The notes under the pieces: model-generated
Database searches by the model: none
What the model was told of the DNA's origin: nothing
The model's input: only the letters and a program-made list of their open reading frames with translations
From: Thermoanaerobaculia bacterium
GTDB taxonomy: Bacteria; Acidobacteriota; Thermoanaerobaculia; Multivoradales; J023
Length of the DNA stretch: 64,000 bases
Assembly (NCBI GenBank): GCA_028066595.1
Contig: JALCBJ010000012.1
Span: 1-64,000 of the forward strand
Reading direction: 5' to 3'
Program-made: the position numbers and the translations under genes
Shown here: piece by piece, positions 10,841 through 55,005 of the stretch
Layout: each line of letters starts with the position of its first letter
How positions within the stretch are numbered: the stretch's first letter is position 1

Positions 10841-11197
10841 ATGCCGAGAGTCAAGCGCGGAAACAAGCGCGCCAACAAGCGTCGTCGCATTCTCAAGCTC
10901 GCCAAGGGCTACTACGGAACCCGCTCGAAGGCCTACCGCATCGCCAAGCAGGCGGTGGACCGTGCCCTGGCGTACGCCTATCGCGATCGCCGTCAGCGCA
11001 AGCGTCAGTTCCGTCGCCTTTGGATCACCCGCATCAACGCCGCCGCTCGCCAGCACGGCCTCTCGTACAGCCGACTCATCGACGGGTTGAACAAGGGCAA
11101 CGTCGGTCTGGACCGTAAGATCCTCGCCGATCTCGCGGTGCACGATCCAAAGGCTTTTGCGGCCGTCGCGGAGACGGCCAAGGCAGCGCTTTCCTGA
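10841..11197 (+). CDS. rplT: 50S ribosomal protein L20
   Basis: Large-subunit assembly protein of 118 residues, full length. Recognised by [38 protein letters not shown] and [19 protein letters not shown]. In many bacteria L20 represses its own operon through an mRNA site; nothing specific to that can be read here. It follows rpmI by 114 bases. Confidence 0.97.
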
Positions 11198-11222
11198 TTC
11201 TTCTGCGAATCACCTAGCCAGC

Positions 11223-11323
11223 GGCCGGTTCGACGCGACAGCGCGGTACACTCCGCGTCGATCGAGCCGGCCCGGGCAGAGCGAAGAGCAGCCAAACAGG
11301 CCGGCCATCAGGTCGGCCTGTTT
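11223..11323 (+). promoter_or_regulatory. Structured leader with terminator hairpin upstream of pheS (candidate attenuator)
   Basis: Two stacked structures fill the rplT-pheS gap. First, GGCCGGTTCGACGCG (11223-11237) pairs with CGCGTCGATCGAGCCGGCC (11254-11272) over about 15 bp with a 4-nt bulge; inside it CGCGG/CCGCG can form a competing small hairpin. Second, AAACAGGCCG (11294-11303) pairs perfectly with CGGCCTGTTT (11314-11323), followed by CTATTT, a standard intrinsic terminator shape. This sits about 75 bases before pheS, so it could end the rplT transcript or act as an attenuator. No Phe-rich leader peptide was found. Confidence 0.55.
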
Positions 11324-11398
11324 CTATTTGGGCCCGAGGAGCAGCGATTCGAGTGATCGAGGGAGGAGGGATCGAGCCGTCATGAAGAGGACACATCC

Positions 11399-12463: not shown

Positions 12464-12599
12464 TCGTCGTTCGACCTCCCCGAAACGGAGGGAGCGCTCT
12501 CGGAGATCGTGCCGGTGCATGGGGTCGCGTGAGGTGGCGTGAAGCGTGCCTGCACGCCCTGACCCCATCCCGGCGCGCGCAGAAATAGGTAGACAGGAC

Positions 12600-14729: not shown

Positions 14730-14756
14730 TCGGTTCCTGGAGACACGGGAGGCAAC

Positions 14757-14975
14757 ATGTCGCAATCTTGGCTAAAGGACCTGGAAGAAAGGGTCCACGC
14801 CGCCTCGAAGGCCCTTCGTGCACTGCGCGCGGAGAACGACAAGCTCAAGGCGCGGATCAAAGAGTTGGAGGATCGGACAGGCGGCGGAGAGTCGTGGCAA
14901 GCGGAGCGCGAAGAGATCCGTGGGCGAGTCGAGAAGCTCGCAGATCACTTGGCCGAGCTACTGGGTGACGGGTGA
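14757..14975 (+). CDS. Small coiled-coil protein, ZapB-like
   Basis: A 72-residue protein that is almost all amphipathic helix (LEERVHAASKALRALRAEN, then EREEIRGRVEKLADHLAEL). This size and heptad pattern resembles ZapB-type cell-division accessory proteins, and zapA/zapB genes often follow pheST. It is not ZapA itself: none of the ZapA motifs are present and no zapA is next to it. GGAG lies before the ATG, 27 bases after pheT, so it is probably in the same operon. Confidence 0.6.
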   Translation: MSQSWLKDLEERVHAASKALRALRAENDKLKARIKELEDRTGGGESWQAEREEIRGRVEKLADHLAELLGDG

Positions 14976-15130
14976 CGATCCAGAAAGTGAACGGAGAAGG
15001 TGTCGGGGCGGCCTGAGGGCCGACATCCGCGAGCTGCGTTCCGTCCCGCGCTCGTAGGAGACCGCCCGCCAAAGCAGCATGATGGAGTGGAGGCCGGGCG
15101 GAGCCTGGCCGTGACTCTCGTGGACAAGCC

Positions 15131-17620: not shown

Positions 17621-17632
17621 CGAACCGCCCCG

Positions 17633-17638
17633 TATAAT
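17633..17638 (+). promoter_or_regulatory. Possible -10 element for the AtuA-like operon
   Basis: A perfect TATAAT in the 142-base gap between the YfhO-like gene and the AtuA-like operon, about 125 bases before the first start codon. No good -35 at 16-18 bases upstream, so the call is weak. Confidence 0.35.
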
Positions 17639-17762
17639 TCCCTGGTGGCTCCCGGTCCGAGCGTTCGACTCGGCCGTTCTCGAGCCCCCCGGGCCGCCGT
17701 TCTCCTCGAGCTCTGCTTCCTACCCGGGTTCACGATTCAGCTCCCGACCTGCCGAGACCTGC

Positions 17763-19139
17763 ATGAAGACCATTCGCATAGGCAACGGCCAGGGCTTCTG
17801 GGGCGACAACGTCGACGCCCCGATCCGCCTTCTGCGTGGCGGAGACATCGACTACATCGGCATGGACTACCTCGCCGAGGTCACACTGTCGATCATGATG
17901 CGCCAGAAGCTCAAGGACCCGGCCAAAGGCTACGCCACCGATTTCGTGGATTTCATCCGTACCGTGCTGCCGGAGCTCCGGGAACGCGGCGTCCGTGTTT
18001 TGTCGAACGCGGGCGGACTCAATCCCCACGCTTGCCGAGAGCAGATCTTCGAAGCGGCACGCGAGCACGGCATCAGCGGACTGCGCGTCGGCGTCGTCGA
18101 GGGCGACGACCTGCTGCATCGACTGCCCGAGCTGATCGACTCCGGGCACGAGCTACGCAACATGGAGACCGATGAGCCGCTGACGCCACGGGTAGACAAG
18201 GTCAGCTCCGCCAACGCCTACCTCGGTGCCTCCCCCGTGGTAGAGGCTCTGGAACAGGGAGCCCACATCGTGCTCTGTGGCCGTGTCACCGACACGGCTC
18301 TGGCCCTGGCTCCCATGATCTACGAGTTCGGCTGGGATCGCGCGCGCTGGGATCTCATGGCAGCCGGTACCATCGCCGGCCATATTCTCGAATGTGGGCC
18401 ACAGTGCACCGGCGGCAACTTCACGCGATTCTGGGAAGTGCCCGATCTGTGGAACGTCGGCTATCCGGTGGTAGAGGCGCGGGAGGACGGTACCTTCACC
18501 GTCACCAAACATGCCGGCACGGGCGGTCTCGTGACGGTCGATACCGTGGCCGAGCAGCTGCTGTACGAGATGGGTAAGCCAGACGAGTACATCACCCCCG
18601 ACGTGGTGGCCGATTTCTCGTCCATCCAGTTGACCGATGCCGGGCAGGACCGGGTCGACGTCGCGGGAATCCGCGGTGGAGAAAACACGCCCTTCCTCAA
18701 AGTGTCGGCCTCATATCTCGCCGGGTTCAAGGCGTCGGGAACGTTGACGATCACCGGCCCGCGTGCGGTCGAGAAGGCCGAGCTGTGCGCTGACATCGTC
18801 TGGAAACGTCTGGAACGTGCCGGGGTGGTCTTCGGTGAGGAACATCGCGAGACCGAGGTGATAGGCACCGGAGCCTGTTTGCCGGGGGTCGAGACCAGCA
18901 GCTGTCCGGTGGATGACCCTGCCGAGGTGGTGTTGCGTCTTTCGGTGCGAGATCCCGAGTACCGAAACGTCGAGCGTTTCGGCAAGGAGCTGGCACCTTT
19001 GGTGACCTCCGGCCCACCCGGCGTCACCGGCTTCGCTGGTGGCCGACCCAAGCCGCAGCGGGTGGTCGCCTACTGGCCAGCGTTGATCGCACGAGAGCAG
19101 GTGGAGGATCACGTCCACGTCACCGTCGAGGAAGTCTGA
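17763..19139 (+). CDS. Acyclic terpene utilization AtuA family protein (DUF1446)
   Basis: A 458-residue cytoplasmic protein of the AtuA/DUF1446 family. It starts with the family segment IRIGNGQGFWGDN and continues with GGDIDYIGMDYLAEVTLSIM, VLSNAGGLNPHACRE and a central AHIVLCGRVTDTALALAPM. GHILECGPQCTGGNF and VEAREDGTFTVTKHAGTGG follow. In Pseudomonas AtuA belongs to the citronellol/geraniol catabolic gene set, but most family members lie in other acyl-CoA pathways and the exact reaction is unknown. Here it starts a three-gene operon with the AtuA-associated small domain and an enoyl-CoA hydratase, suggesting breakdown of a branched acyl-CoA. Confidence 0.85.
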   Translation: MKTIRIGNGQGFWGDNVDAPIRLLRGGDIDYIGMDYLAEVTLSIMMRQKLKDPAKGYATDFVDFIRTVLPELRERGVRVLSNAGGLNPHACREQIFEAAREHGISGLRVGVVEGDDLLHRLPELIDSGHELRNMETDEPLTPRVDKVSSANAYLGASPVVEALEQGAHIVLCGRVTDTALALAPMIYEFGWDRARWDLMAAGTIAGHILECGPQCTGGNFTRFWEVPDLWNVGYPVVEAREDGTFTVTKHAGTGGLVTVDTVAEQLLYEMGKPDEYITPDVVADFSSIQLTDAGQDRVDVAGIRGGENTPFLKVSASYLAGFKASGTLTITGPRAVEKAELCADIVWKRLERAGVVFGEEHRETEVIGTGACLPGVETSSCPVDDPAEVVLRLSVRDPEYRNVERFGKELAPLVTSGPPGVTGFAGGRPKPQRVVAYWPALIAREQVEDHVHVTVEEV

Positions 19140-19140
19140 C

Positions 19141-19497
19141 ATGGCAGCCAAAAAAGTCCGACTTGCCGCGATCGCCCACGCCCGCTCCGGCGACAAGGGC
19201 GATGGTTCGAACGTCGGCCTCATCGCCGACCGTGCGGAGTTCTATCCGATCCTGCTGGAGGAGGTCACGGAAGAGCGGGTCAAAGAGCACTTTCGGGGCT
19301 TCGTCCATGGCAGGGTGGAGCGCTTCGAAGTGGCGAACCTCAAGGCCCTGAACTTTCTGCTTCACGATTCCCTCGGAGGAGGCGGTACCGAGAGCCTCAA
19401 GATCGACGCACAAGGAAAGACCCACGGGCAGGGCCTTCTGCAGATGGAGGTCCAGATACCCGAAGAGCTGCTCGGTCTGGTGCGAGATCGTCGATGA
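19141..19497 (+). CDS. AtuA-associated small domain protein
   Basis: A 118-residue protein matching the domain usually found at the C-terminus of, or just after, AtuA proteins: IAHARSGDKGDGSNVGLIA at the start and LKALNFLLHDSLGGGGTESL in the middle. It starts one base after the AtuA-like gene and overlaps the hydratase gene by four bases, so all three are translationally coupled. In many genomes this domain is fused to AtuA; here it is a separate chain and probably forms a complex with it. Confidence 0.82.
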   Translation: MAAKKVRLAAIAHARSGDKGDGSNVGLIADRAEFYPILLEEVTEERVKEHFRGFVHGRVERFEVANLKALNFLLHDSLGGGGTESLKIDAQGKTHGQGLLQMEVQIPEELLGLVRDRR

Positions 19498-20306
19498 GCG
19501 TCTTCGATCGGGAGTGGCAGTTCCTTCAGGTCGAGCGCAAGGGTGAGAGCCCGGGAGATCTGCTTTGGGTGACCCTCGACAACACGGAGAAGGCGAACGC
19601 ACTGTCGCCGCCCCTGATCCAAGAGATCACCACGCTGTATGAATCGGATCTCCGGGCCGAGGGCATTCGCGCCGTCCTTCTGCGGGGAGCTGGAAAGAAC
19701 TTCTCGGCAGGAGCCGATCTCGAACACCTCGAATCGCTGCGCGATGCCGGCCCTGAAGACAACCAGGAAGACTCAGAGGCCCTGCGTCGCCTGTTCGCGT
19801 CGGTGCTTTGGCAGCCCGCGCTCACCGTGGCGGTGGTCCATGGAGCCTGTGTCGCCGGTGGCTGCGGCCTCGCCACGGCACACGACTACGTCGTAGCGTC
19901 TGCCGGTGCTCGCTTCCTCTACAGCGAGGTGAGAATCGGTTTCGTCGCGGGTCTGGTCGCTACCTATCTGCCTCTACGCGTCAAGGGTCGGGACCTGCGG
20001 GAGATGCTCCTGGACCCGCAGTTCCTCGATGCCGACCGCGCACTCGAAGTCGGTCTCGTCAATCGCGTCGCACCGCCAGATCAGCTGGATGAGACGGCCC
20101 ATACGTTGGCCGGGAACATCCTGCAGAACGCCAGCTCCGAGTCCATCGCCCGCACCAAGCTTCTGCTCCTCGATGCTGTCGGGCGTCCGCTCGAGGAGGC
20201 CCTGCATCGAGCCGCGCGGGTCAATGCCGAGTCGCGAGCGACCGACGACTGCCGACATGGGATCGCCACGTTCCTGAGGACGAAAAGGCCCCCGGTCTGG
20301 CGGTAG
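19494..20306 (+). CDS. Enoyl-CoA hydratase/isomerase family protein
   Basis: A 270-residue crotonase-fold protein, likely acting on an acyl-CoA made by the AtuA-type pathway. CoA-binding and oxyanion segments are present (NFSAGADLEHLE; VHGACVAGGCGLATAHD). Of the two glutamates used by classical enoyl-CoA hydratases, the second is kept in YSEVRIGFVAG. The first (normally in GGGCELA) is replaced by Leu, and this pattern points to another crotonase chemistry (isomerase, hydrolase or lyase, such as a methylglutaconyl-CoA hydratase relative) or altered substrate. GTG/ATG ambiguity is absent: ATGA overlap fixes the start. Confidence 0.85.
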   Translation: MSVFDREWQFLQVERKGESPGDLLWVTLDNTEKANALSPPLIQEITTLYESDLRAEGIRAVLLRGAGKNFSAGADLEHLESLRDAGPEDNQEDSEALRRLFASVLWQPALTVAVVHGACVAGGCGLATAHDYVVASAGARFLYSEVRIGFVAGLVATYLPLRVKGRDLREMLLDPQFLDADRALEVGLVNRVAPPDQLDETAHTLAGNILQNASSESIARTKLLLLDAVGRPLEEALHRAARVNAESRATDDCRHGIATFLRTKRPPVWR

Positions 20307-35526: not shown

Positions 35527-38313
35527 TCAGCCCGATCCGCTTCCCCGTCGGCCGGCGGGGCGACGGTACCCGTCGCTTTCGGTTCCGTCCCAGGCCAGGA
35601 GATTCATCAGCAGCCGGTACGCGCCTGGCACGCCGGCCGGTAGCTGGCGGAAGAAAGCTAGACCGGTGTAGACCCAGCGCCCTCGGCCGACCTCGGCCAC
35701 CAGCAAGCTCCCACGCACCTCGTCGCGACCCGGGTCCGCCATGGCGAGGAGGGGAGTGTAGGCGTCGTCCCAGGTGCCGGCGAAGTAGAGGCCCCGTTCT
35801 TGTACCCAGCCCTGCCAGTCGGCGCTGGTGATGCGATGGGGTGACGACAAGATCGGATGGTTGGGCAGCAGCATGCGGACCGACGCGCTCTCGTCGGTTA
35901 CTCGATCGTGGGGACGCCGGATGTCGAGGGGATAGGGCGCGTACCGGCCTCGGACGAACTGATATTGCTGGTACTGCACCACCACGAGACCGCCTTCTTC
36001 GGCGTAGCGCAGCAAGTTCCTGTTGGCGCGGCCCATCGCCGGATCGGCCTCGTAGGCACGGCTGCCCACGACGATGGCATCGAAGTCGGTCAAGTCGCCG
36101 GCGGCTGCGAGCTGTTCGGCGGTGAGGATCTCGAGTGGGAGGCCGAGCTCCCGCAGTAGATCCGGTACGCGATCCGATGCGCCTCGCACGTAGCCGATAC
36201 GAGATACGTCGGGTAATGCGATGTTGGCCACGGTGAGCTCGAGAGCCGCTGGCAGCGGACGGACGACGGGTCGGATGTGCTCGTAGTCGATGATCTGGAG
36301 GGAACGCTCCATCCGTAGCGTTCCCGGCGTCGAGTCGCTGCCCAAGAACTCCACCTCGATCCGGTATCGTCCGGTAGCGAGCTGTTCAGGCCTCGGGAGA
36401 TCGAGGGCCCGCGTGATGGTCGTCGCCGGTTCCAATCGCACCGGTTCCAGACTGTTGGCAGGCGTCCAGGTCCCTGCCGATTCCAACGGCTGAAAACGGA
36501 CGAACAGGCCACCGTCGATCGGTTCTCCGAGATGTGACGCGAGCGTTACTGTGACATCTCGTTTGGGATCGGCATCCCGATCGGTGGACCAGATCAGCAG
36601 ATCGTCCGACAGGGCCACCTCCACCGGCGGCACGACGCGCAGTGGTCGACGCACCTCGCCCCGAGCCTGATCACGGATGCGGAATACGACTTCCCGTTCC
36701 AGCTCGAACGCGACGCCTTGGAGGTTGTATTCGAAACGTGCGCGCAGCGGCGGCGGGCCGAAGGGCTCGCCGCGCACGGCCTCGGGAACGTCGCTCCAGT
36801 CGTAGAGATCACCATCCAGGGGGCGGTGCAGAAAGTACGGAACGGTGGGCTCGGCGTCAGCCGGAACCCTGAGGCGCAGTACCTGGTCGTCGTCGAGATG
36901 GGTGGTGAAGAAGCCCCGGGGCTGCGGTGGCGGAAGCGTCTGTTCGGGGAGCCACTCGCTGCCGTCTGTAGCTGTCAGGCGGACGGTCTGCAGCTCGGGC
37001 ACCGGGTCCTGCTCGGCGCGCCCCGACCCCTCGTGCCACGACTGCGCGCGTACGTCGAATTCCGCTCCCGGTATCAGGACGGCGGGGTCGGACACGTCGA
37101 GTTCTATGAAGGCATCAATGGCCAGACCCGCCGCGGCGGCCAGGGCTTCGTGGGCGATGCGACGTTTCTCTGAGACGATCTGCCGGACCACACGGACCCG
37201 GTCGGACGACCCGGACGCGAGCATCGAATCGACGGTCGCCAGACGTCCCACGATGCCCGAGAGCGCCGAGACCAAGAAACGCGGATCGTCGGCGAGACGC
37301 ACCGCCGAAAGATCGGCTCGTGAGGACTCGGCCGCGGCCTCGACGGCGTCGAGCTCGACGGCGACTCGTCGGCGGAGTTGTTCGTCTTCCAATGGATCTG
37401 CGATGGCGGACAGGCTCGTGTCGATACCCTCGAAGAGTCGACTTGCGGACTCGCCCGCGCCGGCGACCCAAGCCAGGCGCCCTTCAGCATCGCCCAGAGG
37501 CTGGAGCAGACCCATGTCTTGGCATCTGTGGCGACTACGACTCGCCATGGCGAGCTGGAAGATGGTGCGTCCGCTCATCGGCTCAACGGTACCGAGCGGC
37601 AGATGGATCGTCGGCGGTTCGTCTCCGCGCAGGAAAAAGGCGGCGCGGAACAGCGAGGCCGGCTGCCACGGCTCGTTTTCAGCTCGGGCGGCGTCGAAGA
37701 CGTCCTGCGCCACCACCGCGGATACCTGGTGGTGTCCGTGTCCCGCACGTTCGTCGGGCGGGAACACAGCCACGATCACCTGTGGCTTGAAGCGGCGAAC
37801 CACACGCAAAGCGTCGTCCACCAGTATCTCCAGCGGCCAGCGTCGTAGTGTCTCGTCCGGGGACCGTGTGTAGCCGAAGTCGTAGGCGCGGGCGAAGAAC
37901 TGGCGTGCACCGTCGACCTGCCGAGCTGCCTGGAGCTCTCGGGAGCGAAGGAGTCCGAGTCCGATCCCCAGTTCTTCGCCGAGCAAGTTCTGGCCGCCCT
38001 CTCCACGGGTCAATGAGAAGTAGGCGGCCTCTCCGCCGCGTGCGCGCGACACGTGGGTCAGCAGCGTGGTGTCCTCGTCGTCTGGGTGCGCCGCGATCAA
38101 GAGCAGCCGCTCATGGGTCGACAAACGCGCCAGGGAACGGTCGAGAAAGGGCAATCCGCCCGTGGTCGCGGGCTGGAGCGGGTCGACCTCCGCGACGGCC
38201 GAACCGGCGGGAGCTTCGGGTGCCGTGGGCAGGAGGGTCGCGGTCAGGATCACTAGGGCCACGAATCCCAGGGTGAAGCGCCGCCCTTCGGTTTCACGAG
38301 GTGGTTGGTGCAT
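35527..38313 (-). CDS. Large secreted PIG-L family deacetylase
   Basis: A 928-residue exported zinc deacetylase-like protein. Signal peptide at about residues 12-40, then a PIG-L/LmbE domain (about 65-240) with zinc ligands in LIAAHPDDEDTTLL and HGHHQVSAVVAQDV. The remaining two thirds comprise beta-rich modules and a Rossmann-like region (FDAIVVGSRAYEADPAMG) with MLLPNHPILSSPH and GWVQERGLYFAGTWDDAY, as in the PIG-L proteins annotated as N-acetylglucosaminyl-PI de-N-acetylase relatives of Acidobacteriota. The substrate is probably an N-acetylated glycan or amino sugar. The ATG at 38311-38313 begins the signal peptide region; the track start lies 47 codons upstream with no ribosome site. Confidence 0.84.
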   Translation of the reverse strand: MHQPPRETEGRRFTLGFVALVILTATLLPTAPEAPAGSAVAEVDPLQPATTGGLPFLDRSLARLSTHERLLLIAAHPDDEDTTLLTHVSRARGGEAAYFSLTRGEGGQNLLGEELGIGLGLLRSRELQAARQVDGARQFFARAYDFGYTRSPDETLRRWPLEILVDDALRVVRRFKPQVIVAVFPPDERAGHGHHQVSAVVAQDVFDAARAENEPWQPASLFRAAFFLRGDEPPTIHLPLGTVEPMSGRTIFQLAMASRSRHRCQDMGLLQPLGDAEGRLAWVAGAGESASRLFEGIDTSLSAIADPLEDEQLRRRVAVELDAVEAAAESSRADLSAVRLADDPRFLVSALSGIVGRLATVDSMLASGSSDRVRVVRQIVSEKRRIAHEALAAAAGLAIDAFIELDVSDPAVLIPGAEFDVRAQSWHEGSGRAEQDPVPELQTVRLTATDGSEWLPEQTLPPPQPRGFFTTHLDDDQVLRLRVPADAEPTVPYFLHRPLDGDLYDWSDVPEAVRGEPFGPPPLRARFEYNLQGVAFELEREVVFRIRDQARGEVRRPLRVVPPVEVALSDDLLIWSTDRDADPKRDVTVTLASHLGEPIDGGLFVRFQPLESAGTWTPANSLEPVRLEPATTITRALDLPRPEQLATGRYRIEVEFLGSDSTPGTLRMERSLQIIDYEHIRPVVRPLPAALELTVANIALPDVSRIGYVRGASDRVPDLLRELGLPLEILTAEQLAAAGDLTDFDAIVVGSRAYEADPAMGRANRNLLRYAEEGGLVVVQYQQYQFVRGRYAPYPLDIRRPHDRVTDESASVRMLLPNHPILSSPHRITSADWQGWVQERGLYFAGTWDDAYTPLLAMADPGRDEVRGSLLVAEVGRGRWVYTGLAFFRQLPAGVPGAYRLLMNLLAWDGTESDGYRRPAGRRGSGSG

Positions 38314-38389
38314 GGTGCCAGTGTAACCAGGGTGCACTCTGGCCGACATCGTGTATCCTGAACTTCGACGCACATTCCCTTCTACGAAA

Positions 38390-38947
38390 ATGACCGACGA
38401 CGCCCAGTGGTACAGCACCGAAGCCGATGAACACGGCTTCCTGGACTTCGACAAGCTGGCCCGGAAAGCTCGCGCCCTGAGCGAGGACGACTTTGTCGCC
38501 GCCTACCCGCGCCCGGCCTTGCGCGTGGTCTACCGCGGCGATGGTGTGGCCGACGAGCCCGCTTCGGATCGTTCGGGGGTGCAGCTCTTGACGGTGGCCG
38601 TGAAGAGTGTCGGTATTCTGCGCTACCTTTCCCGGGTTGCGTTCGTCGCGAAACGCCCCGGCGCACCCTTCGCTCACCTCGTCTCCATCGGGCGCTCCAA
38701 CAACAACGACATCACCATGGCGGTGGAGTCGGTGTCGAAGGTCCACGGCTATCTGGTTTTGGAAGAAGGCCGTTGCAGATTCACCGACCACGGCTCGACC
38801 AACGGTTCCAAGTTGAACGGCGCGCCATTGGAGAAGAACGAAAAGTACACGCTCGGTGACGGCGACATCCTGCATCTCGGTCTAGAGACGGCGCTCGAGT
38901 TCCTGACTCCGATGAGCCTCTACCGAAAGCTGAGGGCCGGGAGCTAG
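38390..38947 (+). CDS. FHA-domain protein
   Basis: A 185-residue cytoplasmic protein with a C-terminal forkhead-associated phosphothreonine-binding domain (about residues 75-165). It contains the FHA core SIGRSNNNDITM, VSKVHGYLVLE, DHGSTNGSKLNG and YTLGDGDILHLG. The conserved Ser-Arg and Thr-Asn residues that contact phosphothreonine are there. The N-terminal 70 residues are not recognised. It could read the output of Ser/Thr kinases such as the one at 29-31 kb. ATG at 38390 is chosen over the upstream track start. Confidence 0.82.
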   Translation: MTDDAQWYSTEADEHGFLDFDKLARKARALSEDDFVAAYPRPALRVVYRGDGVADEPASDRSGVQLLTVAVKSVGILRYLSRVAFVAKRPGAPFAHLVSIGRSNNNDITMAVESVSKVHGYLVLEEGRCRFTDHGSTNGSKLNGAPLEKNEKYTLGDGDILHLGLETALEFLTPMSLYRKLRAGS

Positions 38948-40307: not shown

Positions 40308-42353
40308 TCAGTTGTTGGCGTTCTCTTCGGATCTGATGGCGCCGCCTAGCTTTAGGACTCGGCTTCCGATGAAATAGTAGGGTTCGTTGTCGAGAGACAC
40401 GTCGATCCCGATGCCGAGTTGGAACCAGTCCTTGGCGAAGCTGATGGTCAGGCCGAGTCCGATCTCCTGTTCACTGTCCTTGTTCAGGTCTAGGGCGACG
40501 GCGTGGAATCCGAAGCCAAAGCGTTCGAACCACCGAGGGTTCCATTGCGCGGGTCGCTGGAGTTCGGAAGCGTCTCTCCACTTGCGATGGAGAAAAAGCC
40601 AGGAGGTGTGGGGAACGAAGGCCTGGGCTTCGTCGTCGGCTCCTTCCAGGGGATCGAGCGAGCTGAGATAGGCGATGCCGAGGGAGGGCTGGTTATACCA
40701 GCCGAACCGGAGGAGGCGGAAGGTCTGCGAGACTTCGTCGACGATCCGCGGTTCGTTCTCACCATCGAGGCTGTAGAGCCAGGCGCGTAGGACGAGCAGG
40801 TCGTCTTCCCTCCGCGGGTTGATCCTCTGGAGTTCGAGCTGGGTGGATTTGGCGACAGAGAGCAGGCGGAGGGGAGACGTCTGGGGACGTCCCTCCTTCA
40901 GGAGAGACGAAAGCGCTTCGAGAGCGGGCGGGTGTCCAGGGAAGACTCGGAGCTTTGCGATCAGGGCGCGGGCTTCGTCGGGAAGTTCCTGGATCGCGGT
41001 GCCGAGGTCGCGTAGGGGTTGGAGTGCGGGCTCCCAGATCGGGAGGAGAGATTCGCCGAGCGCGTCGGGAAGTGAGCCGAGGATCTCTTCGAGATCAGTT
41101 CGGGTGTCGGCGAGCGACCCGGCCAGATCGGACGTCGAGGGCAGGGAGGTGTTTTCGAGGTTCGACAGTGCCTCTAGGATGGACGCGACTCGAAGGAAGA
41201 GTTCCAGCCCATCGACTTTCTCCGCGTCCCGCACCTGCTCGGCGATGCCCTCTAGGTTCTCGATCAGATCCAACAAAGACGGGCGGGCCAAGGCGACTCG
41301 GACCTCCAGCTCGCGGAGCGACTGGCGGGCCTGATTCCGAACGAGATCCGCCTGGCTCTCCAGAGCGCTTTCGGTCGAGTCCTGGAGTCCGTCCCAGTCC
41401 AGGGTGCGGAGTGACTTCACCTGGACTGTGATCTCCTCGATCCGGTCTTCGATCGTAGTGATCTCGTCCGCGAGCTCACCCCGGCGGAAGGCTTCCTTCA
41501 AGACTTCGCCCACCGACCGACCCGATTGCAGGGCGGCGTTCCAGGTCTGGGCGATGGCGTCCAATTGCTGACGAGCTTCTTCCATCTTCGCGAGCTGATC
41601 TGGTGTGGGGACGATCCGGAGCTTGTCGATCGGCCGAGGGGCGGGCAGATCGAGGGTGCTGTAGTGGGCGAGACCCTGAGGGGTTCGCCCTCCCTTGGAG
41701 GAAAGGTGGTCGACCGCCATCGCCAGGGCGAAGCCCTCGCCCGAGATGTCCTCAAGTTCGCGGAGCTCTGCCGCGGTTCTCTCCAACTCCCTCGAAACGG
41801 CTTCTCCGAACGGTCCCCAGCTCTCACCGACCAACCAGCGGTCGGCGAGCTGGCGGTCGAGAGCGCCGGTATTGACGGCGGTCAGCAAATGCGCGGAGAG
41901 GCGCTGCATTGCCTCCTCGTGATCCGCAGAGAGGGCTTCGACGTCTTCTCCGCTGTTCTGGTTCTCCAGGGCCCTCGCGACTTTGGTGGTCGCATCGCTC
42001 GCGGCGGCGATTCCCTGGACGAGCTCTCTCAGGAGAGTGGCCCTCGCGTGGAGCAATCGGTGAGCCGGGCTCTGGGAGGTTCCGAGTACCGACTGGCCGC
42101 GGAGGTCGACTCGGATCCGAATCGAAGAGTTGACGTCGACGTCCTGGGTTTCGACGCCGAGGAGGAGGGGCAGCTCGCCGGAGACCGGTGCCGCGATCGA
42201 TCGGTTGTACTCGCTCAGAGTCAAGATCGAGTGGAGCGGGCTCGTCTCGTCGGTCGCTCTACCCGGCGCAGAATCGTCTGCCAACAGCGAGGCCGGGAAG
42301 ACGCCGAGAGCGAAGGCCGCTCCGAGAGCAAAGGGTCTTGAGGGCAGCCTCAT
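40308..42353 (-). CDS. Exported helical protein with beta-rich C-terminus, function unknown (hydrolase operon gene 4)
   Basis: I do not recognise this 681-residue protein. A clear signal peptide (about 1-25, FALGAAFALGVFPASLLADD) is followed by about 480 residues rich in amphipathic helix with coiled-coil character (e.g. RQSLRELEVRVALARPSLLD, KMEEARQQLDAIAQTWNAA). The last 170 residues are beta-rich with alternating aromatic strands (FGFGFHAVALDLNKDSEQEI, WFQLGIGIDVSL), as in small outer-membrane barrels. The ATG overlaps the M15 gene's stop (TGATG) and has GGAGG upstream, so it is translated with the peptidase. It may be the surface or export-linked partner of the operon; this is inference. 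Confidence 0.7.
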   Translation of the reverse strand: MRLPSRPFALGAAFALGVFPASLLADDSAPGRATDETSPLHSILTLSEYNRSIAAPVSGELPLLLGVETQDVDVNSSIRIRVDLRGQSVLGTSQSPAHRLLHARATLLRELVQGIAAASDATTKVARALENQNSGEDVEALSADHEEAMQRLSAHLLTAVNTGALDRQLADRWLVGESWGPFGEAVSRELERTAAELRELEDISGEGFALAMAVDHLSSKGGRTPQGLAHYSTLDLPAPRPIDKLRIVPTPDQLAKMEEARQQLDAIAQTWNAALQSGRSVGEVLKEAFRRGELADEITTIEDRIEEITVQVKSLRTLDWDGLQDSTESALESQADLVRNQARQSLRELEVRVALARPSLLDLIENLEGIAEQVRDAEKVDGLELFLRVASILEALSNLENTSLPSTSDLAGSLADTRTDLEEILGSLPDALGESLLPIWEPALQPLRDLGTAIQELPDEARALIAKLRVFPGHPPALEALSSLLKEGRPQTSPLRLLSVAKSTQLELQRINPRREDDLLVLRAWLYSLDGENEPRIVDEVSQTFRLLRFGWYNQPSLGIAYLSSLDPLEGADDEAQAFVPHTSWLFLHRKWRDASELQRPAQWNPRWFERFGFGFHAVALDLNKDSEQEIGLGLTISFAKDWFQLGIGIDVSLDNEPYYFIGSRVLKLGGAIRSEENANN

Positions 42354-43274: not shown

Positions 43275-45608
43275 TCAGCTCAAGGGCTGGATGGACAGGC
43301 TCACGGAGCCGGAGTTGTTCCAGTACATGCAGCTGAGGTCGTTCGCGAAGCAGTAGAGTCGACCCGTCGCGGGGGCGGCGACTTCCTGCCCCGCGGCGAT
43401 CCGGAAGGCATGTCGGTAGCTCTTGCCGATACAGCCGACCAGGGCGAAGAAGGGGACCTTCTCGTCTCCGATCTTCGGTACCCGGAGGCGGGGTTCCAGG
43501 GGGCGGAGGTAGGCGAGCTCGTATCCTTCTGGACCCGACGGGACGAACCAGTCCTTCCAGTCGTCGTCGGGTCGGAGCTGGAACCGGTAGCGCCGTCCCT
43601 GCTGCAGAACGATGCGAGTGTCGTTCCATCGCCGCCTTGCCCGAACCTCGACCGTCCAGGCTAGGTGTCGATCGTCAACTTCCTCGCCCCGGGGTCGCTC
43701 CGAACCAGCAGGCGCGGGAGAGAGCATCACCGTCGGAACCGGTGTCACGGTCTCTCGCCAACGCGAGATGGATTGGACGACGGATTCCCGGGTCACACGG
43801 TCTCTCGAGAAGCCGCCGTGGCGAGCGGCCTGGGAGAACTGCGAGGAAGACTGCCAAAGTCGCAGCTGCGGTTTTGGGAGCCCCCAGCTCGCTGCTGCAG
43901 GGCGCAGGTCCTTCTCCAGGCCCAAGAGCGGCGCTCCGAGGTTGTCCTCGAACGCATTGGAGACCAGGTAGAGAAGCGATCGGTCGTAGCCGAGGATAGC
44001 CCTCGTGGAAGGGTCGGCTCGTTCCTGGGATTCGGTCAGATTGACCGTTGTGACCTTCCGAACCCGTCCATTACGCAGATGGGGGAGGACCCTCTCTTGG
44101 AAGAGATCGAGCCTCGCAGCTCCGGCGAGGAAGGTCGCCGTCTCGATGACGAATCCGCGGGAGGCCAGGAAGTGGATCAGGTGGCTGTGCACGATGGCCC
44201 CCGCCGAGTGGCCGATGAGGTGCAGGCGCAGCTGGTCACCTCGTCTCCCGGACTCCGCAAACTTGCGGATGAGTAGGCGGAGTCCACTCTCCGAATTCTC
44301 CGAGATCCTTCTCGCGTTTTGCTTCATCTCGTCCCAGAGGACCTTGCCGGGACGGCGCACCGTCTGCTCGATCGCCCGAAGCCGGATCTCGTCTAGAGTC
44401 TCCAGGAGCCCGGCTGCCGGCACCCGGTCGACGCCAAGGAGATCTCGAACTCTGTTGGTGATCGTGGAGAGGATGTCAGTCTCCCACATCAGGAAGACCG
44501 GGAGTATCCGGGCATTGAAGAGTGCCGGGATCCAGAGTCGGGCAGCCGCTGCGGCAGCCTTCTCGCCGACCAGGCCGCCGTGGGCGTAGATGGCCACATC
44601 GATCGGGTCTCCGGTGGTTCCCCAGAGATCCTGCGCCCGCGGAAGGTGCTTGTGGATGAGGAGGTCGAGGTCGAGGTCGGTAGATCGGAACTGACCCGTC
44701 TGGCTCAACCGCCCGTTGTTCTCGACGTTGACGATGAAATCGTCGATTTCCTGATTCGCCAGAAGAGTGTCGGAGGAGAGGGAAATCGAGGCGGAGCGAG
44801 CAGAGGTAGGTCGCAGAGTGCCCGCCGCGGCGACCGAGCGGCGGTCTTCGGTCATGACCCCGAGCTGAGCGACCCAGCAGTCCATGCCGTTGTCGAGCCA
44901 GTCGCTGTAGGTGAGGATGGCGAGGCCCTTTGAACCCCAATCCTCTCCATAGGAGTTCTGGATGATGAACCCCTCCGCGGTGTATCCGATGATCGCGAAG
45001 GCGTGGCCCGCCAGGGCATCGCGGCGACGTTGGGGGATCACCCAAAGCTCATTTGGGACCTGACGCCGTTCGAGGCCTTCGCGCCACCCGTCGTGGTAGA
45101 AGATGCTGGCAGCGAGACAACCCACCCTGGCCAGGGCGACCTGCATGTCGACCACGCTCTTTTTCTCGACGCGGTAGTAGGCCCCCATCGGCCGCTTCGC
45201 GGCTTCGAACCACCAGTCGACCTCATCCGCTGCCGGGCGGGGCATCTTGAGGTCCGGCCAGAGCTCTCGGGCACAGGCGCCATGCTTGTACCAGCCTTTG
45301 AGCACACCACGGATACTCGAACCCCGATCGTTCTCGCCCGCGAACTCGTCGTAGCGCCGGGCCATGTTGTATAGCATGTAGGGGGAGACCGGTCGCTGGT
45401 CGTACTCCGGTGCACGCTGCTGCAACACGTGGATCGCTGCGGCGAGCGCGAAACCGGTGCAGCCGAACGTATCCCCCTGGTGGAGGATCGCGATCTCGGT
45501 CGATGGCTCCAAGGACGGTGGGGGCGCCACGTCCGGCGGAGGCTGGTAGAGACGATCCCGGAGGTCGATTCGATCGGGGACGACTTTGGTCTTCAGGAAG
45601 TCGGTCAT
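43275..45608 (-). CDS. Papain-like peptidase fused to alpha/beta hydrolase and lectin-like domain (hydrolase operon gene 2)
   Basis: A 777-residue fusion. The N-terminal half (about 1-255) is a C1-type papain fold: oxyanion Gln44 and catalytic Cys50 in HQGDTFGCTGFALA, His202 in LAGHAFAIIGY and Asn218 in FIIQNSYGEDWGSKG. Residues about 335-540 form an alpha/beta hydrolase with AIYAHGGLVGE and nucleophile Ser468 in HLIGHSAGAIVHSHLI. The C-terminal ~100 residues end in LYCFANDLSCMYWNNSGSVSL. This recalls the galactose-binding lectin LecA/PA-IL family ending (fold assignment is a guess). No signal peptide. The start overlaps the S8 gene stop by four bases (ATGA). Two catalytic activities plus a carbohydrate-binding end in one chain is unusual. 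Confidence 0.72.
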   Translation of the reverse strand: MTDFLKTKVVPDRIDLRDRLYQPPPDVAPPPSLEPSTEIAILHQGDTFGCTGFALAAAIHVLQQRAPEYDQRPVSPYMLYNMARRYDEFAGENDRGSSIRGVLKGWYKHGACARELWPDLKMPRPAADEVDWWFEAAKRPMGAYYRVEKKSVVDMQVALARVGCLAASIFYHDGWREGLERRQVPNELWVIPQRRRDALAGHAFAIIGYTAEGFIIQNSYGEDWGSKGLAILTYSDWLDNGMDCWVAQLGVMTEDRRSVAAAGTLRPTSARSASISLSSDTLLANQEIDDFIVNVENNGRLSQTGQFRSTDLDLDLLIHKHLPRAQDLWGTTGDPIDVAIYAHGGLVGEKAAAAAARLWIPALFNARILPVFLMWETDILSTITNRVRDLLGVDRVPAAGLLETLDEIRLRAIEQTVRRPGKVLWDEMKQNARRISENSESGLRLLIRKFAESGRRGDQLRLHLIGHSAGAIVHSHLIHFLASRGFVIETATFLAGAARLDLFQERVLPHLRNGRVRKVTTVNLTESQERADPSTRAILGYDRSLLYLVSNAFEDNLGAPLLGLEKDLRPAAASWGLPKPQLRLWQSSSQFSQAARHGGFSRDRVTRESVVQSISRWRETVTPVPTVMLSPAPAGSERPRGEEVDDRHLAWTVEVRARRRWNDTRIVLQQGRRYRFQLRPDDDWKDWFVPSGPEGYELAYLRPLEPRLRVPKIGDEKVPFFALVGCIGKSYRHAFRIAAGQEVAAPATGRLYCFANDLSCMYWNNSGSVSLSIQPLS

Positions 45609-47554
45609 CGCGAAACCCCCTGGAGCAGGTGATCGAGGGTCGGACTGAAGGCGGAGTCCCGCCTGGAGCGCCTCGGGCCGCTCAGGGACCCCGCCTCGAC
45701 GGGTACTCCCTCGATGCGTCGCGCGAGGCTCTTCCGAAGTGGCTCATCACAGAGTAGTTGCATCTCGAGCTCGTCCCAGAAGTCCTCGGCGTCCTCGCCC
45801 AGGACTTCCCTTAATCGAGAGTCCACCTGCCTCTGCTCCAGCTCCAGCTCCTCGAAATAGGAGAGCAGGGGGCTGAGGCGCCCTTCGACGAATCCACCCG
45901 CCGGAACGATCGGAGCCGCTTCCAGTCCGGCAGCAACGGCCGAGACGTCCACCTGGAGGACTTTCTTCGCATCGACCAGCCCGGATCCGTACGCGCCTGA
46001 TTCCCACGGGATCCCGCCGGGCCTTGAGAAACCAGTGGTGGCGAGAATGCTCCGGAAGACGGCCGGCACTCGGTCGAGTCCCCCGACCAGCTGACCCAGT
46101 GCTTCTCGGCCGCCATGGTGGGCGATCCAGAGGGCCGCGACTCCTGCCACGTGTGCGACTGCGTAGGACGTTCCGCTACCGCGCTTAACCTTGCGGTACT
46201 CCGTGTTCCGGTCGCTTCCCTTGGACTTCGCGCGCCAGACGTCCTGGCCGGGAGCGGTGATCGAGACCGATTTGCCCCGTGAAGTCGCACTCCAACGTCG
46301 ATTTCGGGCGTTGCTAGCTGCGACGCCCACCACGGTCTTGCATCGGGCCGGGGCGACGACCCAGTACCGTATCTGGTTCCCGGCGGCGGCGCAGACGATG
46401 ACCCCGCGCTCCTCGGCGAAGCGAAGGGCCTGGTCCAGGGTCCGATGAGCGCCCGGGCCCCCCATGCTGATCGAGATGACGTCGCATCCTTGGTCGACGG
46501 CAGCCCGGATCGCCAGCGCAAGGCGGCGGGTGTTGAAGAGCACCACGGTCGAAGAGACGCGAAACGGCACGAGTTTCGCGAGGGGCGCCACACCCTGGAT
46601 CTGGTGCGTCTCTCCACTCATGATCACGCTCGCCGTGGACGTGCCGTGACCCTCGTTCGGGTTGAAACCGGCCTTGAGTAGGCTCTTCCACCACGGGTCC
46701 TTGTCGTCCCACGGATCGTGATCGTCCGCCCAGAAGTCGAAGCCGCTCTCGACCAGGAGTCGATCACTGTCGAGCTCCCGGTGATGCGTGTATCCGGTGT
46801 CGGGATGACCGATGGTCACGCCCTCGCCTCTAGAAGGACGACCAGCGAGGTCCGAGAGCTGCCAGGCCTCTCTGGCGCGGACCTTTCCCAGGGCCCAGTC
46901 CTTGGGTTCGCTCTCGGGGAGGGGGTGCGAGGACCCGCCTCCGGCTGGCACGGCGGTCACCGAGCCCAGCGGGACCTCTAGGTCGGGCGCGATCCCCGTG
47001 GCGCTCTCCCAACCCGACGGAAGGTTGAACGAGGCCTCGGCCCAGCTGACGCCCGGGATCGCTCGAAGCCTGTGGGCCAGCTCGAACGCTTCCGGGAAGC
47101 TCAACTGTTGGAGATCCGGCGTCTTGAGAAAGATCGGTCCCGGCGCTTCGAGGTCCACGCGCAATCTCGTGGAGAGCACCGCCTCGGACTCGGAGACGAT
47201 CTCCTTGAGGGCCTGGTCTGCCGAGACGTCAAGGAGGAATCCCTCGAGGCCGTATCGGAGCAGCTCAAGTCCCAGACCTGCCATCAGGCGTTCCTCAGAT
47301 CGCCGGGCCGAAAAGCCAGTGACCTCGAGAAGCAGGTCGAGCTGGGCTCGAGCCAAATGCACTCGATCGGCCTGGGAGACTGCACGCCCCCAGGCGTACC
47401 GAAGGAAGATCTCGGCCGCCACTCGAGCCGCTAGCTCGTTCTTCTCGTCGGCTGCGGGAGGGTCGGCTCTCGTGCCCAGTGATTCGAGGAGAACCTCCCG
47501 GACCTGCGCAAGGAATCGATCGGCGATCAGAAGACGTACTGCGAGATGACTCAT
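45605..47554 (-). CDS. Subtilisin-family (S8) serine peptidase, no signal peptide (hydrolase operon gene 1)
   Basis: A 649-residue S8 peptidase. The triad is Asp252 (GVTIGHPDTGYTHH), His303 (NEGHGTSTASVIMSG) and Ser463 (RGSGTSYAVAHVAG), with oxyanion Asn393 (AAAGNQIR). An I9-like inhibitory prodomain may occupy about 130-180 (LRAIPGVSWAEASFN). The first ~120 residues are helical and have no recognised family. No signal peptide is visible, so it is expected to act inside the cell or to be exported by another route. The C-terminal ~100 residues are charged and helical. It is the first gene of a four-gene minus-strand unit. Leucine codons favour CTC over CTG here, unlike the neighbouring core genes (seen by eye). 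Confidence 0.8.
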   Translation of the reverse strand: MSHLAVRLLIADRFLAQVREVLLESLGTRADPPAADEKNELAARVAAEIFLRYAWGRAVSQADRVHLARAQLDLLLEVTGFSARRSEERLMAGLGLELLRYGLEGFLLDVSADQALKEIVSESEAVLSTRLRVDLEAPGPIFLKTPDLQQLSFPEAFELAHRLRAIPGVSWAEASFNLPSGWESATGIAPDLEVPLGSVTAVPAGGGSSHPLPESEPKDWALGKVRAREAWQLSDLAGRPSRGEGVTIGHPDTGYTHHRELDSDRLLVESGFDFWADDHDPWDDKDPWWKSLLKAGFNPNEGHGTSTASVIMSGETHQIQGVAPLAKLVPFRVSSTVVLFNTRRLALAIRAAVDQGCDVISISMGGPGAHRTLDQALRFAEERGVIVCAAAGNQIRYWVVAPARCKTVVGVAASNARNRRWSATSRGKSVSITAPGQDVWRAKSKGSDRNTEYRKVKRGSGTSYAVAHVAGVAALWIAHHGGREALGQLVGGLDRVPAVFRSILATTGFSRPGGIPWESGAYGSGLVDAKKVLQVDVSAVAAGLEAAPIVPAGGFVEGRLSPLLSYFEELELEQRQVDSRLREVLGEDAEDFWDELEMQLLCDEPLRKSLARRIEGVPVEAGSLSGPRRSRRDSAFSPTLDHLLQGVSR

Positions 47555-51488: not shown

Positions 51489-52679
51489 CTATTCCTGTAG
51501 AAGATGGAAATCTCGAACCAGATGGACCGAGCCGCCTTCCCATTCCAACTCGATGTCCTGGCCTGACATGGCTTCGACGGCTCTCTGAATTCCCTCACTG
51601 GAGAGCTCGGTGGCGGTTCCGTTGATCGAGGTCAGATGAATCCCCGGTTCGAGCCCCGCCTTGTGTGCGGGCGAATCGTCCCAGACCAGTGCGACCGAGA
51701 TCTTCCCGTCGAAGGCCAGCGTGAACCCGAAGGATGGCCGGACAAACGGACCGTCGGAGTACTTCGCGAAGTAGGCAGCTCCGGATCTCGCATCGAACGT
51801 GACGATGAAGTGCTCGAGCATTGCCGCACCGATGAGACTCGGTGACGAATCTCGCCGGATCGCACCGACGCGGCCGAGCTTCAAGTTGTCTATCGACAGC
51901 GTTTTCAGTTCGGCTTGCAGTTGATCGCTGTCGGGTGCTTGACCGCCGAGGGAGCCGCCCGCGGATCCGAAGCCAGCCCGGGATGTTCCGATGCCGCCAC
52001 CCTGTTCGGCCCCCGCGAAATCGGCTTTCGAGATCGCAAAGTAACCTGGAGAACCCGTATCGAACATGGCTTTGCTTCGGGCCCGCTTCGCGAACTGGAC
52101 GTCGAGGATCGGCGCGTGAGGATAGCCGAAGCCATGGAGTGGAACCTTGGTGGCGTTGCCGACGGAAGGTAACTTCTGGGCGTCCGTATCGAAACGCAGA
52201 ACGGAATTCTGTAGGTCGATCTGCCACGCGCCCAACGGAAGGAGCTCCGAACCGAAAAGGCCGTCTCCGAGAAAGAACTTCGTGGTTTCCGAAGTCGAGA
52301 AATCCGCAGAGAACATCGGCACCTTGTGAAACGTGACCCCGCCCAACTTTAGTGTCGCCTGCACGATGTCGCTTTCGATGACGACTCCGTGGGAGTCTCT
52401 GCCTTGGCTCTTGCCTACGACCTCCAGGCCCAGTTCCTTCGCGAGTGCCGTGTCGATCATCGACGGAGACCCCGTGTCGACGACGAAGCGCCTCGTCTGC
52501 CCGCCGATCTCGACTTCGACGTGGAGCTTGGTGGCCATGGTCCGCAGTGGAACCTCGGTCGAGGTGGAGCCCTCTCCGAGGTAGGGTCCCTCGATGATCC
52601 ACTCGGGAGGCTGATCCTGCGCAGCTGCTGCAGCACAGAAAACCAAAAGCCCGAGTAGACATCCAATGCGATTCTTCAT
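51489..52679 (-). CDS. Exported retropepsin-like aspartic protease with C-terminal PDZ domain
   Basis: A 396-residue exported protein. Signal peptide at residues 1-20 (LLGLLVFCAAAAAQ), then two retropepsin-like aspartyl units, each with the D-T-G site: RRFVVDTGSPSMID and KAMFDTGSPGYFAI. The last ~110 residues form a PDZ-like domain (SVALVWDDSPAHKAGLEPG with HLTSINGTA). It is expected to be periplasmic or extracellular and to process or bind peptides; substrate unknown. It lies downstream of the winged-helix gene on the same strand with an 79-base gap. Confidence 0.8.
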   Translation of the reverse strand: MKNRIGCLLGLLVFCAAAAAQDQPPEWIIEGPYLGEGSTSTEVPLRTMATKLHVEVEIGGQTRRFVVDTGSPSMIDTALAKELGLEVVGKSQGRDSHGVVIESDIVQATLKLGGVTFHKVPMFSADFSTSETTKFFLGDGLFGSELLPLGAWQIDLQNSVLRFDTDAQKLPSVGNATKVPLHGFGYPHAPILDVQFAKRARSKAMFDTGSPGYFAISKADFAGAEQGGGIGTSRAGFGSAGGSLGGQAPDSDQLQAELKTLSIDNLKLGRVGAIRRDSSPSLIGAAMLEHFIVTFDARSGAAYFAKYSDGPFVRPSFGFTLAFDGKISVALVWDDSPAHKAGLEPGIHLTSINGTATELSSEGIQRAVEAMSGQDIELEWEGGSVHLVRDFHLLQE

Positions 52680-52758: not shown

Positions 52759-55005
52759 CTACGATGTCCGCCACCGGCGGGAGCGAGGTCGCGGACAGTG
52801 CCGACGAGCGTGAAGAGCCGAGAAGCGTGGTCGAGCTACGGTACAGCAGGGTCCGCCCGCCCACGCCGAGCGTTCCAGGAGGACGACGTCGCTCTCGCTT
52901 CGTTCGACCTGAACGAAGACGAGAGTCGTGCCGTCGGGTGAGGCAGCCAGTGTATTCGGTGTATACGGAACAGGTTTTTCCGGTCGGTAGCGGGTGGTGA
53001 TGCTCTCGGCCTCGAAATCGTAGAACGCAAGGCCGGCATCGGCTCCCCGTCTCACGAACCAGATGCCGTTCTGGGTCACCGTCCAATGGCCGAATTCAGA
53101 AAGAACCATCTCGTCGAGCAGGATGGTGTCGGGGCCACCGGTGAGCGGAACTTGCCAGATCCCCGGTTCGTCGTGTTTGAAGAAGATCAAGCGCTGTCCG
53201 GAGGGATCTTCCATTCCTCGAAATCCACCGTCACGGGTGATCTGCTGGACCCTCTCACCGTCGATCTGCATTCTCCAGATCTGCCAATCCCCCGAACGGT
53301 CGGAGGCGAAGTAGATCCACTGTCCGTCGTTGGAAAAGGATGCGTTCAGCTCGTTCGCTCGGCCGTCGGTCAACCGTTCGGGGCGCCTTTCCTCGCCTGC
53401 GACGGTGTAGAGATCGGCACCGGTTTCACCGTGGGCATGGAAAGCCAGGGAGCGGCCGTCCGGGGACCAGGACGGCATGGCGACGATCTTCCCTCGGAAG
53501 TCGGTGTGCTGTCGGACGCCGGTTCCGTCTCGGTGGCTCGTGTAGATCTCGAAGAAACCAGAGCGGTTCGACACGAAGGCCAGCCTCTCTCCGTCCGGAG
53601 AAACGTGCGGCTGCAGCTCCTGCCTCGTAGAACCGGCGGCGAGTCTCGGTAGGGGCGGACCGTCGCTCCCGCCATCTTCTAGATCGACCGTGTAGATGTT
53701 GGTGTCGTCGTCGTAGCGGCTGAAGACGAGGCGGTCGTCGGCCCGCGACAGGCTGGGCCAGTAGACGAGATGGTCAGACCGGCGGACGGGTGTAGGTCGG
53801 CCACCGATCGCGGGCAGGCTCCAGAGGGCCGGGATTCCGCCATAGCTCGCGGAATAGACCAGACGGTTGCCGTCCGACGTCCAGTCCAGGCCCATGACGA
53901 TTCTGTTCTCCGAGGAGAGCCGTCGCGGCTCACCTCCGCCTACGGAAATCACGTACACATCGCCGCGGCCATCGGGGAAGGCCCGGGTGAATGCGACCTG
54001 AGCGCCGTCGGGCGAAAACATCGGATACTGGTCGCCCCGTGCTCCGCTTGGCGGATTCGTCAGGAACTGCCGGTCACCGCTGGCGATCTCCGTCAGGATC
54101 ACCCGCCGTGGCGAGTCGGGCGACGTCGATTCCGACGAGGCCAGCCACTCCCCGTCGGGGCTCCAGGCCAGCCGGCCCATGATGCGTTGCCAGCACGGGG
54201 AGATGAGATCCGGCGTTCCCCCGGTCGCGGGCGCAACGTAGAGCCCGCAGCCTTCATCCGACCTGCGGTACCAGGCGAGCCGTTCGCCGCCCGGGGACCA
54301 GGTCGGCCCGCCATCCGCGCCGTGCTCGTGGGTCAGTCGAACGACTTCTTCGGAACCGATGTCTTTGACGAAAATGTCCCAGCTGGCCGAGGAGTGGAGG
54401 TCTCCGTCGGTGTCGACAGGGTGAACGAACGCCACGCGAGTGCCGTCGGGTGAGATGGCGGGGTACATCTCCCGCCCGGGGAGAGTGGTCACAGGGACCG
54501 AGAGGGGTGTCGTCCCGGCGGCGCGCAGCGTTGGGACGCGGTCGCTTCTACCGTCTGCCATGACCAAGACGACGGCGGCCCCCAGGATGCCGGTGGCAGC
54601 CAAGGCTCTTCGCCGAAGCAGGCGGCGTCGGTCGACTGCCTGCGCTACCGCTCGGGTGGCAGGCGACGTGTCGGTGTCGACCGGGCGCACCTCGGCGACC
54701 ATGCGATATCCCGACTTGCTGACGGTCTGGATGTAGGTCGGGCGACGCCAGTCGTCTTCGAGTACCTTCCTCAAGGAGGCGACAGCTCTCGCAACGACGT
54801 TCTCGGTGACGGTGACGTCGGCCCAGATCGTTTGCAGGAGCTCGTCGCGGCTGACCACCTGTCCCTGTCGGGTCGACAGCATCTCGAGCACTGCCATGAC
54901 CTTGGGCTCGAGCCGGTGGGTCAGGCCGTCTCGGCTGATCTGGTGGAGGCGTGGCTCGACAGTCCAGGGCCCGATCGTGAAGACCTGCCAGCGTGATCTG
55001 TCCAT
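52759..55005 (-). CDS. Winged-helix transcriptional regulator with TolB-type beta-propeller
   Basis: A 748-residue membrane-tethered regulator of the type common in Acidobacteriota. N-terminal OmpR/PhoB-like winged helix (about 5-105, QVVSRDELLQTIWADVTVTE and YIQTVSKSGYRMVAEV), a membrane helix (about 133-150), then WD40/PD40 propeller repeats of the TolB/DPP-IV kind (ISPDGTRVAFVHPVD, FSPDGAQVAFTRAFP, TSDGNRLVYSASYG, VSPDGERLAFVSNR). The final 30 residues are Arg-rich and do not look like a propeller blade. The regulatory target and signal are unknown; the neighbours upstream (divergent) encode exported proteins. Confidence 0.82.
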   Translation of the reverse strand: MDRSRWQVFTIGPWTVEPRLHQISRDGLTHRLEPKVMAVLEMLSTRQGQVVSRDELLQTIWADVTVTENVVARAVASLRKVLEDDWRRPTYIQTVSKSGYRMVAEVRPVDTDTSPATRAVAQAVDRRRLLRRRALAATGILGAAVVLVMADGRSDRVPTLRAAGTTPLSVPVTTLPGREMYPAISPDGTRVAFVHPVDTDGDLHSSASWDIFVKDIGSEEVVRLTHEHGADGGPTWSPGGERLAWYRRSDEGCGLYVAPATGGTPDLISPCWQRIMGRLAWSPDGEWLASSESTSPDSPRRVILTEIASGDRQFLTNPPSGARGDQYPMFSPDGAQVAFTRAFPDGRGDVYVISVGGGEPRRLSSENRIVMGLDWTSDGNRLVYSASYGGIPALWSLPAIGGRPTPVRRSDHLVYWPSLSRADDRLVFSRYDDDTNIYTVDLEDGGSDGPPLPRLAAGSTRQELQPHVSPDGERLAFVSNRSGFFEIYTSHRDGTGVRQHTDFRGKIVAMPSWSPDGRSLAFHAHGETGADLYTVAGEERRPERLTDGRANELNASFSNDGQWIYFASDRSGDWQIWRMQIDGERVQQITRDGGFRGMEDPSGQRLIFFKHDEPGIWQVPLTGGPDTILLDEMVLSEFGHWTVTQNGIWFVRRGADAGLAFYDFEAESITTRYRPEKPVPYTPNTLAASPDGTTLVFVQVERSESDVVLLERSAWAGGPCCTVARPRFSALHARRHCPRPRSRRWRTS

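Follow-up and report, generated by a model that had tools for sequence, protein, structure and literature searches.

The window, by which we mean the whole analysed stretch of 64,000 nucleotides, contains four coupled genes on the reverse strand, and the second of them encodes a protein of 777 amino acids with three domains (positions 43275-45608 (-), ATG start, ORF intact). The domains are a C1A peptidase of the xylellain type, an alpha/beta-hydrolase and a C-terminal domain with the LecA/PllA fold. The first gene of the group encodes an S8 subtilase of 649 amino acids without an obvious signal peptide (45605-47554 (-); PF00082, E = 2.7e-33; D252, H303, S463), and its stop codon overlaps the start of the three-domain gene (ATGA). 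Thirteen bases with a purine-rich stretch separate the three-domain gene from the third gene, which encodes an M15 peptidase of 302 amino acids resembling phage endolysins (42353-43261 (-); PF13539, E = 3.6e-11; PHROG endolysin, E = 9e-21; zinc-ligand motif H96, D103, H150). Judged from motifs and profiles, the S8 and M15 assignments are firm and the catalytic motifs are present. The start of the fourth gene overlaps the M15 stop codon (TGATG), and its product of 681 amino acids carries a predicted Sec-type signal sequence (40308-42353 (-)); no Pfam match was found for it, and the search for relatives in 72 genomes of its order returned one broken, weak fragment. No clear signal peptides were found on the S8, three-domain and M15 enzymes, and inspection of the N-terminus of the 777-residue protein revealed no hydrophobic signal.

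The operon was not marked as foreign by its GC content, promoter and terminator searches gave no signals above chance, and of the PADLOC models only the generic subtilase and caspase ones responded. The caspase profile detected no caspase in the window, where a C1 peptidase stands in its stead. Elsewhere in the window we observed genes for a retropepsin-like aspartyl protease that also contains a PDZ region (51489-52679), for a putative regulator combining a DNA-binding domain with a WD40-like propeller (52759-55005) and for a 975-amino-acid protein that begins with a PIG-L deacetylase domain and continues in a long, unassigned stretch (35527-38454).

The N-terminal domain (approximately residues 9-250; 44859-45584 (-)) was identified as a C1A peptidase by alignment, profile and Foldseek searches. 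Gln44, which is the oxyanion glutamine, Cys50, His202 and Asn218 were invariant in an alignment of 23 sequences. The window protein alone matched xylellain (PDB 3ois, Xylella fastidiosa) with E = 1.1e-12 in phmmer, and a profile built from 16 C1 sequences matched the same entry with E = 1.6e-28, with cathepsins and papain next. In a full-length AlphaFold2 model, where the C1 part had pLDDT values mostly between 70 and 95 and lower ones before residue 40, 3ois was the first Foldseek match (E = 4e-14, 24% identity). The window protein missed the curated cut-off of PF00112 (14.2 versus 20.7 bits), which two of its relatives passed; since the profile and fold tests are the stronger ones and both placed the domain in C1A, we kept this assignment despite the miss. 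Xylellain is the best match in both sequence and structure and shares with the window protein the fold, the catalytic residues and an N-terminal segment. The matched chain has 291 residues and no second enzyme, whereas the window protein adds a hydrolase. In a 2013 FEBS Lett. paper, cited in PMC10380794, xylellain is reported to be an N-terminally capped, regulated peptidase.

The middle domain (approximately residues 286-617; 43758-44753 (-)) is probably an alpha/beta-hydrolase, as judged from its motifs, its conservation, weak profile matches and the order of strands and helices in the model. It contains an HGG motif (residues 343-345), Ser468 in a GHSAG motif, His597 and the candidate acids Glu529 and Asp532. 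In the alignment of 23 sequences His597 was invariant and Ser468 was kept in 22; all four residues, including the two acids, were invariant in a separate alignment of 22 rows. The modelled strands run through residues 336-344 (with HGG), 368-375, 460-468, 488-494, 516-524 and 582-586. Ser468 lies in a nucleophile elbow between strand 460-468 and helix 470-483, and His597 follows strand 582-586, as expected of an alpha/beta-hydrolase. A helical insert after strand 368-375 bears a conserved W-x-EMK-x-NA motif in the model. Glu526, directly after strand 516-524, is replaced by a non-acidic residue in some caspase-linked relatives whose sequences were read by eye, which makes Glu529 or Asp532 the likelier catalytic acid. 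The hydrolase profile matched known hydrolases weakly (best E = 0.015, to a putative serine hydrolase), and DUF900, an alpha/beta-hydrolase family, was matched by 6 of the 22 members of the alignment. With hhalign no match was obtained between this profile and one single neighbouring hydrolase. The 50 Foldseek matches listed for the full-length model were all papain-family entries. A homologue from Palleronia (L038, 7962-9944) has a degenerate hydrolase that has lost HGG and the serine, with an intact C1 triad; genes for S8, haem peroxidase and PAP2 proteins adjoin its own.

The C-terminal domain (approximately residues 652-775; 43284-43655 (-)) has the LecA (PA-IL) fold. The alignment behind the full-length model included seven noisy rows of misplaced lectin fragments; the C-terminus of that model was unusable, and the tail was modelled separately. 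The tail model had a mean pLDDT of 86.7 and matched EclA-N, PllA and LecA with a Foldseek probability of 1.0. A profile of eight tail sequences matched PllA, LecA and EclA with E-values from 8.6e-11 to 6.7e-7 (PllA/LecA at 8.6e-11 and 6.7e-8). The tail alone gave no Pfam match, yet two other members of its alignment match PF07828. Asp757, Asn764 and Asn765, the predicted calcium ligands, align with the side-chain ligands Asp114, Asp121 and Asn122 of EclA. The fold and three side-chain calcium ligands are common to LecA, PllA, EclA and the window tail. The window tail differs in sitting on enzymes, and in a reading of the sequence by eye no counterpart of the His/Gln of the LecA galactose loop was seen after the GPEG motif. 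In EclA, too, the LecA domain retains calcium and the galactose-binding residues are not conserved (PMC11875179). The sequence-only reading had proposed a glycosylated substrate, and this was the weakest of its claims: the tail keeps the calcium ligands of LecA, but no match to the galactose-loop residues was seen by eye.

The same reading had placed Gln44, Cys50, His202, Asn218, Ser468 in GHSAG and NNSGS close to the C-terminus, all of them correctly, and its anatomy of two unrelated hydrolases with a lectin-like end was borne out by conservation, profiles and Foldseek, less firmly for the hydrolase fold. The structure prediction and Foldseek comparison that it had proposed as a check brought 3ois to the top for the C1 domain and a lectin fold for the tail. 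Sequence or model evidence supports the three folds and the intact catalytic residues well, though the hydrolase fold less strongly than the other two, and the protein is a novel architecture built of known parts. A partial precedent is Cwp84 (PDB 4ci7), in which a papain-like peptidase and a lectin-like domain also share a single chain, the lectin-like folds being likened here by description. Cwp84 is a surface-layer-associated protease, unlike the window protein, and is not known to contain an alpha/beta-hydrolase.

The pair of C1 and hydrolase domains was found far beyond the source organism. Including the window we counted 29 loci (one partial), and among these the LecA-like tail was present only in the window protein. 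The pair occurs in Rokubacteria, Ignavibacteria, Bacteroidota, Proteobacteria and the source's own phylum, on plasmids and on one viral contig. That single viral contig and weak matches of phage proteins to the C1 domain only do not make it a typical phage gene, and a phage origin was rejected. Its occurrence is patchy: among 297 genomes from the source phylum any match was found in 21, and in about one-third of these the match was to the full pair. The catalytic residues of both enzymes are conserved across phyla, and the N-termini mostly lack hydrophobic signals, several of them being rich in Lys and Ala. RefSeq labels these proteins 'C1 family peptidase'; the C1-hydrolase pair is widespread, undescribed and unnamed. 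The conserved unit is thus the peptidase-hydrolase pair, usually without any lectin domain.

The LecA-like tail has a distribution of its own. It ends DUF2235 (Tle1-like) hydrolases in genomes of the source order, in Pseudoalteromonas and in Agrobacterium; a further match came from Caballeronia. It is also found on an astacin-like protein, TPR proteins and others. Two of the DUF2235 loci, with further matches, are on Pseudoalteromonas and Agrobacterium plasmids. The DUF2235/Tle1-like phospholipases (PF09994) thus share the same C-terminal tail with the window protein in several genera; they belong to another hydrolase family and lack a C1 domain. The tail appears to be a lineage-specific add-on, so far found on the pair only in the source bacterium. 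Since EclA has been called the first LecA domain joined to another domain, its partner there being a sugar-binding domain (PMC11875179, 2024), the fusion of LecA domains to enzymes looks new.

We then surveyed the partners of the hydrolase domain with profiles for C1, hydrolase and caspase. Where the hydrolase had no C1 domain, a caspase was found in the same chain or adjacent to it in all 10 independent loci; where it had one, a caspase was nearby in only 2 of 29. In the surveyed loci the hydrolase was therefore always accompanied by a cysteine peptidase, either C1 in the same chain or else a caspase. The Fisher p of 1e-7 for this alternation is descriptive only and not valid as a significance level, because the alternation may be one ancient swap and the tree decides neither for one exchange nor for several.

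Cell-wall hydrolases were a second recurrent partner. A GH19 domain of the phage-endolysin type is fused ahead of the C1-hydrolase pair in three loci (one by Pfam, two by homology; Rubrivivax, Variovorax), and Amidase_2 is fused ahead of hydrolase-caspase proteins in five (two by Pfam, three by homology), one of them on a cyanobacterial plasmid. In R. etli and S. fredii, proteins with Amidase_2 or CHAP are encoded next to relatives. A cell-wall hydrolase is absent from the immediate surroundings of most C1-hydrolase genes, which stand alone, and tblastn did not detect the S8 and M15 genes of the window next to other genes for the pair. A run of genes in Sinorhizobium meliloti BL225C comes closest to the gene set of the window: an ORF of about 890 amino acids, in which a DUF2235 region is combined with a LecA-like end (E = 4e-7), lies ahead of ORFs for a lysozyme, a hydrolase and a caspase on the same strand. 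The BL225C record has no gene annotation, and the lysozyme and later ORFs were identified by their likeness to those of S. meliloti ml28, whose annotated run consists of a phage-type lysozyme, a hydrolase, a caspase and a pYEATS protein. In place of the long DUF2235 ORF of BL225C, the annotation of ml28 shows no more than a short DUF2235 piece upstream of its run. Across this pair of loci (L105, and L106 at 8639-20000) the order is DUF2235-LecA-like, a gene of unknown kind, lysozyme, hydrolase, caspase and pYEATS. A row of genes on Mesorhizobium pOM4 encodes a hydrolase, a caspase, a PLD/trypsin protein and a trypsin-like protein.

Similar pairings have been described in the VMAP-ternary conflict systems, where an alpha/beta-hydrolase is reported next to the caspase in every case and a joint action of the two was proposed (Kaur et al. 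2020, PMC7159879). As in the window, a hydrolase is coupled there to a cysteine peptidase, the hydrolases being likened by description. The resemblance extends to the relatives of the window hydrolase that are fused or adjacent to caspases, some of them near trypsin-like peptidases or a pYEATS protein. Unlike the VMAP-ternary systems, the window has a C1 papain-like peptidase in the same chain, a lectin-like tail and M15 and S8 partners, and no vWA/MoxR/NTPase core was recognised in it. The C1-hydrolase pair appears to take the place of the caspase-hydrolase pair already known from bacterial cell-death and conflict systems.

On this basis we tentatively read the protein as a peptidase and a hydrolase united in one chain, forming part of a bacterial module for envelope lysis that serves cell death or conflict, a reading we hold to be nearly as probable as its contrary. 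The reading draws on the caspase-hydrolase pairing of the VMAP-ternary systems together with the inclusion of alpha/beta-hydrolases among membrane-lipid effectors (PMC8195603), on the C1/caspase alternation and the recurrent cell-wall hydrolases, and on the company kept, that is S8 and M15 in the window and caspase, amidase, GH19, lysozyme and trypsin in relatives. The conserved residues, the missing N-terminal signal, the ATGA and TGATG overlaps and the patchy spread across phyla also point to it. Activity, substrates, the order of activation and self- or prey-directed use are what we infer: the xylellain-type peptidase would fill the place held by a caspase in related loci, the hydrolase could attack membrane lipid or another ester, the M15 neighbour would, by its family, cut peptidoglycan, and the S8 protease may activate or limit the set. 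After cells open, the LecA-fold tail might anchor the enzyme to a glycan or another surface ligand in a calcium-dependent manner. The prevalence of stand-alone C1-hydrolase genes speaks against a lysis module, and next to the operon we recognised neither a sensor NTPase nor an adaptor, which also counts against it. A purely internal death module is further disfavoured by the predicted export of the fourth gene product, which would be needless there. A broader proposal is more doubtful: a new kind of lysis or immunity module that would use a papain-type peptidase and a hydrolase in one chain instead of the caspase-hydrolase pair, work with phage-type cell-wall hydrolases and, in some lineages, be localised to surface glycans by a portable LecA-fold tail.

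The tail gives some weight to the notion of an exported or injected effector, delivered by a contractile injection system or by lysis, in which the tail would aim and the C1 and hydrolase domains would damage: it carries a predicted calcium site, it is also borne by DUF2235 proteins, and the same genome has a cluster resembling extracellular contractile injection systems. This cluster (L107; contig C183, 56000-75999) includes two sheath proteins, a gp19-type tube, CIS_tube, a baseplate hub, Phage_base_V and Tail_P2_I. It lies on a contig other than that of the operon, most relatives of the protein have neither a lectin domain nor such neighbours, and no immunity gene was recognised. Delivery by a T6SS was rejected, as no VipA/PF05591 match, and so no T6SS sheath, was found in the assembly, which is 95% complete. 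We consider the injected effector fairly unlikely; the multi-headed effector of the sequence-only reading is plausible as such and lacks a signal peptide and a linked secretion system.

A stress-controlled peptidase-esterase acting inside the cell in regulation or quality control, non-lytic and with incidental neighbours, would agree with the stand-alone genes of many genomes and with the reported capping and regulation of xylellain. We hold this to be quite unlikely, given that cell-wall hydrolases of the endolysin type have repeatedly been joined to this chain and that the gene is translationally coupled to M15 in the window. Decidedly unlikely is a released scavenging or matrix enzyme, where peptidase, esterase and peptidoglycan peptidase would digest dead neighbours and the tail would keep the enzymes on biofilm glycans. 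The operon is rich in hydrolases, one of its products is predicted to be exported and the tail is found on astacin-like, TPR and other proteins; the three enzymes, however, have no clear signal peptides, and the relatives are accompanied by caspase, pYEATS and trypsin proteins, which is not the company of digestive enzymes.

Whichever use the window protein serves, it belongs to a widespread, unnamed C1-hydrolase family that has been annotated merely as 'C1 family peptidase' and that is tied to caspase-type conflict systems through the exchange of partners. This leads to the testable prediction that bacterial papain-like peptidases can substitute for caspases. The tail, soon after the report on EclA, extends the LecA domains from lectins to the tails of enzymes.
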